64,000 bases of DNA, taken from Pseudofrankia sp. DC12. GTDB taxonomy: Bacteria > Actinomycetota > Actinomycetes > Frankiales > Frankiaceae. Under the pieces are notes generated by a model that was given only the letters and a program-made list of their open reading frames with translations, had not been told where the DNA came from and made no database searches. The DNA is taken from NCBI RefSeq assembly GCF_000966285.1, contig NZ_KQ031391.1:2763208-2827207 (forward strand), read 5' to 3'. Shown piece by piece: positions 45,972 through 49,441 of this stretch; within the stretch, counting starts at the first letter, position 1; every line of letters begins with the position of its first letter. The position numbers were made by a program, and so were the translations under genes.

Positions 45972-46562
45972 GTGGATGACGACCCGTACGTCTGGCCCGG
46001 CACGGACTGCCTGCAGAACCTGCTCGGAATCCGAGACCGCGAAGAGTTCCACACGGCCGAGCACGAGATCGTCCGTGCCCGCAGGCTCCAGCTCGACATG
46101 GCATTCCTGCCCGGCGACTACGACACGGAGCACCTGCGCGGCTTCCATCGCTACCTGTTCCAGGACGTCTACGAGTGGGCCGGTCAGTTCCGGCAAGGCG
46201 ACATCTCCAAGGACGGCCAGCCGTTCACCCCCGCCGGGGAGCTCACCGAACGGCTGGACCGCCTCTTCGACCGGGTCGCGGCCCGCAAGCTCTTCGTCGG
46301 AATGGAATGGGAGCAGTTCATCGGCGGGTTCGCCATGCTCTACGGCGACCTGAACGGCATCCACCCGTTCCGCGAGGGCAACGGTCGGACCCAACGCGCG
46401 TTCCTGCGCCAGCTGGCCGCGCACGCCGGCTGGACGGTCGACTGGAGCTCGCTCGGCCGCTTCGCGAACGCCCGCGCCTGCGAGCGCTACCTGAAGACGG
46501 GCAAGCCCCACGCCCTGATCAAGCTCCTCGCCCCCATCATCAAGAAGCGCCCCAGAAGCTAG
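45972..46562 (+). CDS. Fic/DOC-family AMP-transferase-like protein
   Basis: 196 residues from a GTG. The Fic core carries the complete catalytic motif HPFREGNGRTQRAFLRQL (HPFx[DE]GNGRxxR), with catalytic His and the anion-binding GNGR, preceded by EWAGQFRQGDISKDG, the flap region. Fic enzymes transfer AMP from ATP to target hydroxyls, often as toxins (target may be gyrase/topoisomerase IV). No inhibitory helix is visible at either end of the protein, and no class I antitoxin gene is recognisable next to it, which is unusual for an active member. Confidence 0.88.
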   Translation: MDDDPYVWPGTDCLQNLLGIRDREEFHTAEHEIVRARRLQLDMAFLPGDYDTEHLRGFHRYLFQDVYEWAGQFRQGDISKDGQPFTPAGELTERLDRLFDRVAARKLFVGMEWEQFIGGFAMLYGDLNGIHPFREGNGRTQRAFLRQLAAHAGWTVDWSSLGRFANARACERYLKTGKPHALIKLLAPIIKKRPRS

Positions 46563-46720
46563 AGCCGCTGCCCGGACGGAGTTGGCCGGTCGTGCGAGTG
46601 TGAACCTGGCTGGTGAACCACGCGGCGCCAGCCGGCCGGCGCTGGCGCCGCTCTGGTCCGTGTGCATCTTGTTGGTGCCCTGGGGTGTGCCTGGGGCGTC
46701 GGGCCTGTCACGCTGTGTCC

Positions 46721-47427
46721 ATGCGAGATCGTTCGGCCGGGGGGCCGGAACGGCTGACTGATCTGGGTGCGATCGCGGCCAAGCTCGCCGAACCGGCTGG
46801 TTACCACGTGCTGCACCTGTCCGCGCACGGCTCGTCGGCTTCGGTCGAACTTCAGGACGAGGACGGCCGGCTGGTCACGGTCGCGGCCCAGGATCTGGTG
46901 ACCGGCGCGATCCGAGCCGCGAAACGACCGCTGCCGGTCGTGGTCCTCTCCAGCTGCGCGGGTGCCGCCGGTGGCAGCGACGGCCTTGCCGCGGCGCTGG
47001 TCCGAGGCGGCGCGGACCGGGTCGTGGCGATGCAGACGTCGGTCACCGACGACTACGCGACGACCTGGGCGCGAGTTCTACCGAGAGCTGGCCAGCAACC
47101 CGCGGTTGACCGTGGCGGCGGCGGTCGCACAGGCGCGTCGGGTCGTGGAGCAGCAGCGACTGGCGGCTCGACGCGTAGACCGCCCGCGGCTGCTCGCCCC
47201 GGAGCGCCACCGTCGCGATGGCGGCGGAACAGGCCGGCGACGGCGCGACGGGGCTGGCCGACGGTGAGCGGGAGCTGCTCGCTCAGGCTGGGGAGGCGTT
47301 GGGTGACCCGCGCTGGGATGACAGCGCGCGCCTCGCGCTGGTCGGCGAGCTCCTTCGCAAAGCGCGACTGGTCATCCTGTTCGACGACTTCGAGCAGACC
47401 CTCACGGCCGATGGGCGGCAGACGGTC
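46721..47427 (+). pseudogene. Broken CHAT-domain (caspase-like) gene
   Basis: Three successive frames give pieces of one CHAT protein. The first has YHVLHLSAHGSSASVELQDE with the catalytic-type His, and PVVVLSSCAGAAGGSDGLAA with the Cys, then DRVVAMQTSVTDDYATTWA. A shift near 47072 leads to REFYRELASNPRLTVAAAVA. A second shift near 47200 leads to RLALVGELLRKARLVILFDD followed by FEQTLTADG, the start of the STAND/ATPase-like part. The rest is missing at a join with an antisense globin fragment. CHAT proteases act in bacterial immune-type cascades, but this copy is inactive unless the frameshifts are sequencing errors. Confidence 0.65.
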
Positions 47428-47611
47428 TTCCAGAAGTCGCACATGATCGGTAGATGTGCGGCGAGGTCGAGGTGCACGACATCGACGAAGCTCGGACCGA
47501 GCAGCGGGTCGGCGAACGCCCGGCCGTAGAACGCGGTGACCAGTGTGGCGATGTCCTCCCGTCTGTGATGTCGCGCGTCGGCGCGTCCGGTGCCCCGCTG
47601 CCGCCGGTCAT
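47428..47611 (-). pseudogene. Truncated and frameshifted group III truncated hemoglobin
   Basis: The ATG (complement of 47609-47611) overlaps the stop of the upstream membrane gene, as in a coupled operon. After APTRDITD one base seems lost (near 47565); the next frame reads REDIATLVTAFYGRAFADPL, then LGPSFVDVVHLDLAAHLPIM and CDFWKTV, an unmistakable trHb3 N-terminal half. The heme-proximal His and everything after the FW motif are missing. Group III globins are linked to NO or oxygen chemistry. Confidence 0.65.
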
Positions 47612-48045
47612 CTCAACAGCTCCTGAGCGAGCAGGGCGCCGAGCGTGGGCAGCAGGATCACTTTGACAGCTTCCAGGGCGATGTAGGCGACGTGCAGGTG
47701 GGACGGTGGCGGCGGGTTTCCCGCGATCACCTGCACGGCCCGCCGGTCGAGGCTGGGGCGCAGCGCCGCCACTTGGACGGCGAGAACGGCAAGGATCGCG
47801 GCGGTCACCCCCCACGCGGGCGTAGCAGGTGCGTGAAGGGCCAGGGCAAGCAGAAGTAGCGCACCCAGGGCGATTTCCAGCCGGTTGACCGCGCGGAACA
47901 CCAACCGGCCGATACCCAGGCCCAACGGGATCGTGATCTCGGGCGCGCGGAACTTCAGCGGCGCCTCGAGAAACGAGATCCCGGCGACCAGCCCGAGCCA
48001 GACGAACGGGACCGCGACCTGAAGGACCCGTGCGGCGTCACGCAC
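47608..48045 (-). CDS. Small integral membrane protein (DUF4149-like?)
   Basis: 145 residues, four predicted membrane segments: AVPFVWLGLVAGISFLEAPL, LEIALGALLLLALALHAP, WGVTAAILAVLAVQVAAL and LEAVKVILLPTLGALLAQ. It overlaps the upstream regulator stop by 8 bp and the downstream globin start by 4 bp, so it is the third gene of a four-gene operon. Function unknown; the resemblance to DUF4149-type proteins is weak. Confidence 0.72.
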   Translation of the reverse strand: MRDAARVLQVAVPFVWLGLVAGISFLEAPLKFRAPEITIPLGLGIGRLVFRAVNRLEIALGALLLLALALHAPATPAWGVTAAILAVLAVQVAALRPSLDRRAVQVIAGNPPPPSHLHVAYIALEAVKVILLPTLGALLAQELLR

Positions 48046-48859
48046 GCGATGCCCCGCGAGCCGCCGTCGCCCGGGTGGTCAGGTGCGCCACGCACAGGCC
48101 GGGCTCGGCGAAGGGCACGAGGCGGGTGTCGAGAGGCGGTGCGGCGAGGTGCTCCAGCGCTCCGCGAAGGAGCCCGAGGTGCAGGGTGCAGACCACCTCG
48201 GGATGTGCCTTGGCGACGCCGAGGAACGGACAGGCATGCAGCAGGACGCGCTTTGCGCCGGGTTCGCCGGCGAGTTCCGGATCGAAGCCCACCTCGGTGA
48301 ACAACGCCATGACCTCCCGCATGACGTCGCCGAGCGCCCTGGTCTGATGGCCCGCCGGCCCCCGAGCGTTTCCAACGATCAGGTGGCCGTCGGGTGACCG
48401 CGCCGAGTAGCACTCGTCGGCCCAGGCACGGCCGGCCCGCTCCGCCCGCGCGGCCTTCTCGCCGGCGCTGTCCGCCAGATTCGCCGCGAGCATCGCGGCA
48501 AGGTGCTCGTAGCCGCCTCGCTCGTCGCCGGGACTGGTGGGCGCGTAGGTGACCCGCGGGCGACCAGGTGTCGAACGCGCCCGCGGCCCGGACACGACGA
48601 GACCTGCGGCGGCCAGCCGGTCCAGGTGGAAACGGACTGTCGACACGGCCAGGCCACTTTCCAGGGCGAGCTCGCGGGCGTCGAGCGGACCCGGGGCCGC
48701 GCGCAACAGGCGCAACAGGTCCAGGCGGCTGGCCACCGCCAGCGCGCCGTGCCGGCGGCTCCGGTCAGCCGCCGCGTCGCGGGCCGCGCCGACGCGCTGC
48801 CCGTCCCCGCTCGGCCCGCTGCGCCCGCCGGGGCCGGCCGGACCGGGACCGCCGGTCAT
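48038..48859 (-). CDS. HTH transcriptional regulator with C-terminal cysteines, possible Fe-S or NO sensor
   Basis: 273 residues from the ATG at 48859, which overlaps the ferredoxin stop. Winged helix near residues 60-120: [40 protein letters not shown] and [11 protein letters not shown], as in ArsR/SufR-type regulators. The C-terminal part has [20 protein letters not shown] (Cys-x13-Cys) and [12 protein letters not shown], a third Cys. Similar cysteine patterns hold an iron-sulfur cluster in SufR-like repressors. Placement between a ferredoxin and a globin supports sensing of iron, redox or NO; this is inference. Confidence 0.75.
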
Positions 48860-49197
48860 GCCCGGGACGGATGACCGGCGACCAGGAGGGTGTCGACGCC
48901 GACCACGCCGACCTTGCCCGCTCCACCAGGCGAGCCCAGTGCGGTGGCCCGGCCAGGCAACGGCTCGGCGAAGAACCGAACGTTGTCGGCGATGAACGGC
49001 TGGCGCGCCTCGGGGACATCGTCCTCGTAGGCGATCGCCTCGACCGGACACACCGGTTCGCACGCCCCACAGTCGACGCACTCATCGGGCTGGATGTACA
49101 GCGCCCGGCCACCCTCGTAGATGCAGTCGACAGGGCACTCCTCGATACACGCCCGGTCCAGGACGTCGATGCACGGCTCGGCGATCACGTATGTCAC
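48856..49197 (-). CDS. fdxA: Seven-iron (3Fe-4S/4Fe-4S) ferredoxin, FdxA-type
   Basis: 113 residues. [20 protein letters not shown] with [10 protein letters not shown] and [20 protein letters not shown] shows the FdxA cysteine pattern for one 3Fe-4S and one 4Fe-4S cluster. A soluble electron carrier, first gene of the operon fdxA-regulator-membrane protein-globin. The GTG start lies 43 nt downstream of an AT-rich promoter region containing the palindrome ACGATgaatATCGT. Confidence 0.92.
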
Positions 49198-49239
49198 GGC
49201 GCACCCCTCGATCGGCGACGATCTCGTGGCAGAGTTTAC

Positions 49240-49253
49240 ACGATGAATATCGT
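49240..49253 (-). promoter_or_regulatory. Candidate operator of the ferredoxin operon
   Basis: ACGAT GAAT ATCGT (49240-49253) is an inverted repeat with 5-bp arms inside the most AT-rich stretch of this neighbourhood, just upstream of fdxA. It could bind the operon's own winged-helix regulator. Confidence 0.4.
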
Positions 49254-49441
49254 TTTTACGTGGTCGAGACGCGAACGGGTCCCGGTGCCACTGGCCGGGC
49301 CAGGTCGCGGATCTCCGCCAGGACGGGCCTTGTCAGGGTGTCGGCAGGGTGTTGGCGTTTGGCGGTGCGGTGTGCTGTCGAGCAGCGCGCGAGCGTGCGC
49401 GAGCACGGTCGGGTCGCTGTCGACGTCCGCCTGCCGGGCGT

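Follow-up and report, generated by a model that had tools for sequence, protein, structure and literature searches.

A putative nitric oxide defence operon with an ArnR/SufR-type regulator and a broken globin gene in Pseudofrankia sp. DC12

Genes and features of the locus

The window analysed here is a stretch of 64,000 nucleotides from Pseudofrankia sp. DC12 (assembly GCF_000966285.1, contig NZ_KQ031391.1, positions 2,763,208 to 2,827,207). Its minus strand carries, between 49197 and about 47428 and in this order, a ferredoxin gene (fdxA), a regulator gene, a gene for a predicted membrane protein, here called MEM, and the remnant of a truncated-globin gene (Table 1). The strand and order that a first-pass annotation had given for these four genes are borne out by the sequence, while its claim that each overlaps the next by 4 to 8 bp holds only in part. 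The fdxA and regulator genes share 4 bp (48856-48859) and the regulator gene and MEM 8 bp (48038-48045), but MEM and the globin are separated by a 1-bp gap, the MEM stop codon being followed by one base and then by the globin ATG at 47606.

Table 1. Features at the locus, with positions in the window
Feature	Position	Strand	Basis
Candidate operator, 5' of fdxA	49235-49260	-	Conserved near-palindrome; position and likeness in congeners
fdxA, FdxA-type (7Fe-type) ferredoxin, 113 aa, GTG start	48856-49197	-	NCBIfam model, PDB matches
Winged-helix regulator, 273 aa, ATG start at 48859, TRAPP/Bet3-like sensor at C-terminus (modelled)	48038-48859	-	HTH_5, alignment, model
MEM, predicted four-helix membrane protein, 145 aa, GTG start, weak DUF4149 resemblance	47608-48045	-	Model
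Group III truncated-globin remnant, ATG at 47606	47428 (about)-47606	-	Reading frame, congener comparison
CHAT-domain ORF, outside the operon	46613-47446	+	CHAT, E 3.3e-9

The ferredoxin is recognised by the NCBIfam model FdxA_Actino (NF045480) with 164.1 bits (cut-off 125), and its best PDB matches are ferredoxins, several of them named 7Fe. MEM is predicted to form four long helices. Many of its charged residues are invariant, as is a single histidine, His118. No Pfam or NCBIfam model reaches its cut-off on this protein; the resemblance to DUF4149 (PF13664) amounts to 12.6 bits against a gathering score of 24.6, and among its relatives 16 of 18 match this family at E up to 1, the best at 5.9e-5. 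Among solved structures, Foldseek found none that convincingly resembles the MEM model (best E 1.1).

The globin gene is damaged twice: its frame is lost from about 47553, and its sequence ends at about 47428, where it abuts the CHAT-domain ORF, the frame of which continues into the globin. Both genes may be truncated at this junction. A further ORF, with a Fic/DOC domain (45972-46562, E 1.1e-15), lies just 5' of the CHAT ORF. The first-pass view that the globin is broken in this strain was correct. The 46-residue remnant finds nothing in Pfam or NCBIfam, and its assignment to the group III kind is made through the intact copy of a congener, which matches no Pfam family at E 0.001 and has as its best PDB match 2ig3 ('Group III truncated haemoglobin', E 1.2e-4), presumably Campylobacter Ctb. 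Ctb is under the control of a CRP/FNR-type regulator. Read in its own frame against a congener, the remnant has a dN/dS of 0.14, which suggests, on the short stretch of 43 codons, that the loss is recent. The genome encodes three other globins of the PF01152 family, a search that did not bring up the intact group III copies of the congeners G001-G003 among the matches listed. Flavohaemoglobin Hmp was sought in the genome at E 1e-20, with no match.

Conservation of the gene order and of the upstream site

The neighbourhood of the regulator was surveyed in 80 named loci, the best 80 of 517 confirmed relatives when ranked against a Streptomyces-type regulator, a sample weighted towards Streptomyces, Actinomadura and Kribbella. 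The tblastn searches for neighbours, here and in the other genomes, used a small set of reference proteins and may have missed some. MEM lies downstream within 1 kb in 63 of the 80 loci, FdxA precedes the regulator on the same strand in 31, and at least one of the two stands beside the regulator in 72; an earlier count with fewer references had given 62 for MEM and 32, one of them on the other strand, for FdxA. Since FdxA and/or MEM flank the regulator so regularly, their grouping goes beyond chance. A divergent cupin-like gene (53/80) and a divergent gene of the hemerythrin/DUF2249 type (31/80) are also frequent, Hmp occurs once, and a group III globin never. On an annotated Nocardioides plasmid, too, fdxA and the gene of a 'helix-turn-helix domain-containing protein' overlap by 8 bp, with a DUF2249 gene divergent from them. 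On these neighbour counts, it is the fdxA-regulator-MEM set that is conserved, to which a globin may or may not be added.

The globin as fourth gene is found in three congeners. In G001, G002 and G003 (L140-L142) the regulator and MEM are followed by an open globin; a complete FdxA accompanies them in L141 and L142, and L140 gave just a 20-residue match to it. Other congeners are arranged differently: G004 combines FdxA with a regulator but has neither MEM nor globin there (L143), and carries a regulator-MEM pair at a further locus (L144); regulator-MEM pairs of yet another type are found in G005 and G006 (L146, L147); and G007 has a partial regulator only, on a short contig. A scan of 251 genomes of another family (f4), from which 18 loci were fetched, added two loci among the matches listed. 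In L300 (6653-13452), subunit I of an aa3-type oxidase is encoded between FdxA and MEM, a group III globin comes next in the row, and the regulator is divergent; in L302 (7570-8492) the gene behind the regulator encodes a group III globin of about 103 aa, likewise truncated. Genes at these two loci, as at L152 and L268 and around the globin copies of the phylum sample described below, were called with a codon-composition heuristic. Because of these two loci, the four-component set extends beyond the genus of the window, yet it is rare. Of the four-gene order proposed in the first-pass annotation, the FdxA-regulator-MEM part is thus conserved, but the globin was seen with it in the three congeners and, rearranged, in L300, and in none of the 80 named loci.

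Some neighbourhoods show yet other genes. L300 also carries a DUF2249 gene divergent from another regulator, ahead of the FdxA-oxidase-MEM-globin set. On two Rhodococcus plasmids, regulators of the same kind (L286, L288) lie beside catalase, YciI, VOC or FHA genes. In M. tuberculosis, Rv2620c, Rv2621c and Rv2622 are given in the accessible text of one source as a single locus of a transmembrane protein, a regulator and a methylase (PMC10470581). This locus matches one of ours (L152) in the kinds and order of its genes, a likeness of annotation and not of sequence.

Upstream of fdxA, 63 bases before the start, lies a near-palindrome with the core AAAACGA-N6-TCGTGTAAA, found at the same place and closely alike in congeners. 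Its edge reads TAAACT, by eye a possible -10 box. The candidate operators differ between clades. A second form, TTTTTACAA-N6/7-TTGTGTAAA, is present in further members of the family as well as in f4, Streptomyces has ATTATTACATGTAgtATTtGTaaAAA, and the regulator-globin operon of L302 is preceded by a strong palindrome, AGTTTATACAA-N7-TTGTATAAACT; L298, L304 and L305 have no clear site in the stretch examined. A motif trained on the 80 named loci alone, with the 99% level of random locus windows as its threshold, exceeds this threshold in 79 of the 80 training loci and in 13 of 40 held-out regions, that is, in 12 of 22 of the module type and 1 of 18 with distant regulators, compared with 1.7% of locally shuffled controls. 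The site in the window scores -0.6 against a threshold of 3.7, yet it is exactly the site at 49235-49260 that the motif picks. The core matches the genome exactly once. A search for a wider regulon at up to 3 mismatches gave 2 matches, one of them the exact one, against 3 for the reversed control. A second target is not claimed, the near matches being within the control level; variant sites could be missed by such a search.

With its globin destroyed and no flavohaemoglobin found in the genome at E 1e-20, the strain might be thought to carry an operon that is decaying and idle as a whole. This seems very unlikely, since the operator core is intact and FdxA, the regulator and MEM are all open, with dN/dS values of 0.14-0.40 against two congeners, although these are averages that cannot isolate the time since the globin was lost.

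Affiliation of the regulator

The N-terminal part of the regulator is a winged helix, both by Pfam (HTH_5, E 3.8e-7) and in the structure model, which has a mean pLDDT of 82. The C-terminal part carries the pattern C-X13-C-X2-H-X28-C, made up of Cys210, Cys224, His227 and Cys256, so that the Cys-x13-Cys with a further Cys pointed out in the first-pass annotation is indeed present. The spacing between the cysteines is X13/X31. As to whether these residues vary among homologues, the first two cysteines and the histidine occur in all 46 aligned regulators and Cys256 in all 45 rows that reach its column; in alignment A1 (23 rows), one sequence (L020) is without a Cys at this column and another (L009) ends before it. 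The fourth cysteine of the protein, Cys150, varies even among congeners. By analogy with ArnR, Cys210, Cys224 and Cys256 probably hold a [4Fe-4S] cluster, for which His227 would be the best candidate for a fourth ligand.

In the model, residues 109-263 adopt the fold of a TRAPP subunit, with 2bjn as a match (Z 15.3, rmsd 2.6 Å over 137 residues) and the archaeal TRAPPC3 structures 7yh3 and 7yh2 somewhat behind (Z 12.2 and 11.9). For the regulator model, none of the matches from Foldseek alone reached E 0.001, 2bjn coming second at E 2.4e-3, and the matches of a PDB sequence search with profile A1 are confined, or nearly so, to the winged-helix region. The modelled fold of the sensor need not be specific to ArnR.

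The regulator is a member of the ArnR/SufR superfamily. ArnR of Corynebacterium glutamicum is described, in the accessible text of its paper, as a NO-sensing [4Fe-4S] repressor of hmp that is linked to narKGHJI, with Cys179, Cys193 and Cys223 spaced X13/X29; its authors assign it to the TRAPP superfamily with the TRAPPC3 templates 7YH2 and 7YH3, place its homologues almost exclusively in Actinobacteria and term Rv2621c ArnR-like (PMC12343034). The regulator of the window shares with it the winged helix-turn-helix, the TRAPP-like C-terminal sensor (as modelled), three cysteines with X13 between the first two, a nearby conserved histidine and a tie to hmp; it differs in having X31 instead of X29 before the third cysteine, and ArnR is tied to narKGHJI as well as to hmp. 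A binding motif of ArnR was sought in the accessible text of the ArnR literature and not found there. Profile A1, made without ArnR, retrieved in the f4 scan, among the matches listed, regulators in two small genomes (L290, L291; E 9.6e-37) with cysteines at 179 and 193. Upstream of the regulator in L290 lie NarG, NarH, NarJ and NarI, all over their model cut-offs, and tblastn around L290 and L291 gave no match for FdxA or MEM.

SufR of the Rv1460 type, too, is a winged helix-turn-helix repressor with three cluster cysteines, and in pairwise comparison it is as close or closer: BLAST places the regulator of the window at 4e-17 from a SufR-like protein (L247) and at 2e-11, with about 28% identity, from the nar-linked ArnR of L290. 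The pattern of X13 and C-X2-H recurs in a regulator near sufB (L248) and in two similar ones (L246, L247). Furthermore, an unrooted tree joins the regulator of the window with an Hmp-fused regulator (97/94), inside neither the ArnR nor the SufR-like group, which form separate long branches. Sequence alone, as it stands, does not separate the two affiliations. A split by cysteine spacing or by the SufR cut-off was dropped, as both discriminate poorly.

It is therefore worth weighing that the regulator could respond not to NO but to iron or Fe-S status, or to peroxide, with FdxA as an Fe-S spare part and the links to Hmp and globin as secondary. Such a role fits the common superfamily, the sufB-linked relative, the better pairwise score against L247 and the catalase and YciI genes near the Rhodococcus plasmid relatives. 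It is nevertheless unlikely in our estimate, given that the regulator is fused to Hmp elsewhere, that no suf gene was recognised within the operon whereas SufR is encoded by the first gene of a suf operon, and that the spacing of X13/X31 departs from the X12/X27 of Rv1460; the SufR model TIGR02702 reaches 16.6 bits against a cut-off of 178.8, although it fails the SufR-like L246 and L247 as well. The first-pass remark that the protein is reminiscent of SufR is thus fair. M. tuberculosis SufR itself reportedly responds to NO, and because of this the two readings overlap. The ArnR-like function is preferred because of the context, that is, Hmp, globin and MEM, which favours it.

Links to nitric oxide defence and a possible mechanism

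One of these links is found in another genus of the same family, where two genomes (G008, G023) encode the regulator and Hmp in a single ORF of 785 and 753 aa (L148, L150), the Hmp part having as its best NCBIfam model 'NO-inducible flavohemoprotein' (366 bits against a cut-off of 432). A sensor and a NO-detoxifying enzyme sharing one reading frame are unusual in themselves. In G017, Hmp is divergent from a regulator-MEM pair at about 0.9 kb. The earlier proposal of an Fe-S type regulator tied to NO is supported by these fusions, by the Cys/His conservation and by the modelled fold, which is that reported for ArnR; the cluster itself we infer.

Across the phylum, MEM was found in 20 of 396 sampled genomes (21 matches, the window's own included). 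Ten of the 21 copies, again with the own one, adjoin the regulator, which in G204 is a partial match. Two adjoin Hmp without a regulator (G342 and G352, the latter with an Rrf2 gene first), two have a globin but no regulator beside them (G215, G379), and seven have neither regulator, Hmp nor globin as neighbour. A run of an NsrR-like Rrf2 gene, Hmp and MEM is seen in L268 (5024-7242). This arrangement recalls the NsrR-Hmp pair, a NO-sensing repressor with a NO-removing globin, with MEM behind it; NsrR, however, belongs to another regulator family, and the Rrf2 protein of L268 scores 76 bits against the NsrR cut-off of 182.

The group III globin is present in 13 of the 396 genomes (16 matches, including the own one). 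Eight of the 15 other copies have a recognised neighbour and seven have none. MEM is the neighbour of two, and four, in three genomes, lie near a SufR-like regulator: in G338 at about 1.4 kb with one gene in between, in G348 for two globin copies with a ScdA_N/hemerythrin gene adjoining too, and in G436 with sufB adjacent. In G188 the sole recognised neighbour is a ScdA_N/hemerythrin gene, and in G439 a NorB-type nitric oxide reductase lies about 1.2 kb away. Genes of the ScdA_N/hemerythrin (RIC) type directly adjoin group III globins in L247 (8407-9153) and L250 (8428-9126). NorB-type reductases are seen near an FdxA-regulator pair in L161 (3682-6066) and near a group III globin in L255 (8808-11216).

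These distributions also bear on the ferredoxin, for which the first-pass annotation had suggested that it feeds electrons to the globin. FdxA as the physiological donor of a group III globin turning over NO would agree with their common operon in the window, L141 and L142, and with L300, where FdxA, an oxidase subunit, MEM and a globin occur together. We give this little probability, because among the 80 named loci 31 have FdxA ahead of the regulator and none has the globin, and because FdxA was not seen within the fetched stretch in any of the 12 other globin genomes that were fetched. A dedicated donor for the globin is not supported by the distribution of the genes.

The gene set, the conserved Cys/His pattern, the predicted fold, the conserved operator and the links of the family with Hmp and globins, all drawn from sequence, can be brought together in an autoregulated, NO-derepressed detoxification operon under an ArnR-like Fe-S repressor, with the globin lost here. 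We regard this as probable, if by no wide measure; the cluster, the NO response and the repression we infer from ArnR, and the roles of MEM and FdxA are conjectural as well. With an intact [4Fe-4S] cluster, the regulator would sit on AAAACGA-N6-TCGTGTAAA over the fdxA promoter. NO would nitrosylate the cluster, the repressor would leave the DNA, and fdxA, the regulator, MEM and the globin would then be expressed jointly. Removal of NO would fall to the globin, as it does to Hmp where the latter is joined to the regulator or to MEM, and MEM would be a membrane partner common to modules centred on Hmp, on the group III globin or on the regulator. FdxA would supply electrons, perhaps for repair, without being dedicated to the globin. 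Here the globin has been lost, and the sensor, the ferredoxin and MEM remain. Against this model speak the copies without recognised partners (7 of 21 for MEM, 7 of 15 for the globin), the different neighbours on the Rhodococcus plasmids, the variation of the operators between clades, the score of the window's own site below the motif threshold, the better pairwise match to a SufR-like protein and the 80 named loci, of which one has Hmp and none the globin.

The type of regulator is a known kind, and what seems new is the operon, the operator, the Hmp fusion and MEM. In the openly licensed PMC literature, no description was found of the fdxA-regulator-MEM(-globin) module or of any of these other three. 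It could be imagined, as a tentative idea, that MEM is an undescribed family of membrane proteins serving NO-removing globins, maybe by re-reducing the globin or by handling NO or nitrate at the membrane, given its placement with Hmp, with group III globins and with ArnR/SufR-type regulators. Combined with the Fe-S sensor and FdxA, MEM would then form a second NO defence in actinobacteria, one that does not depend on NsrR and extends to Rv2620c-Rv2621c.

The NO-derepressed operon proposed here would link the ArnR-type sensing of corynebacteria to a recurrent fdxA-regulator-MEM operon of Streptomyces, Kribbella, Actinomadura and others. It predicts an operator and draws attention to MEM as an uncharacterised membrane protein found repeatedly beside various partners of NO defence. 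In this way, the sensing and removal of NO in actinobacteria that have no Hmp becomes testable.
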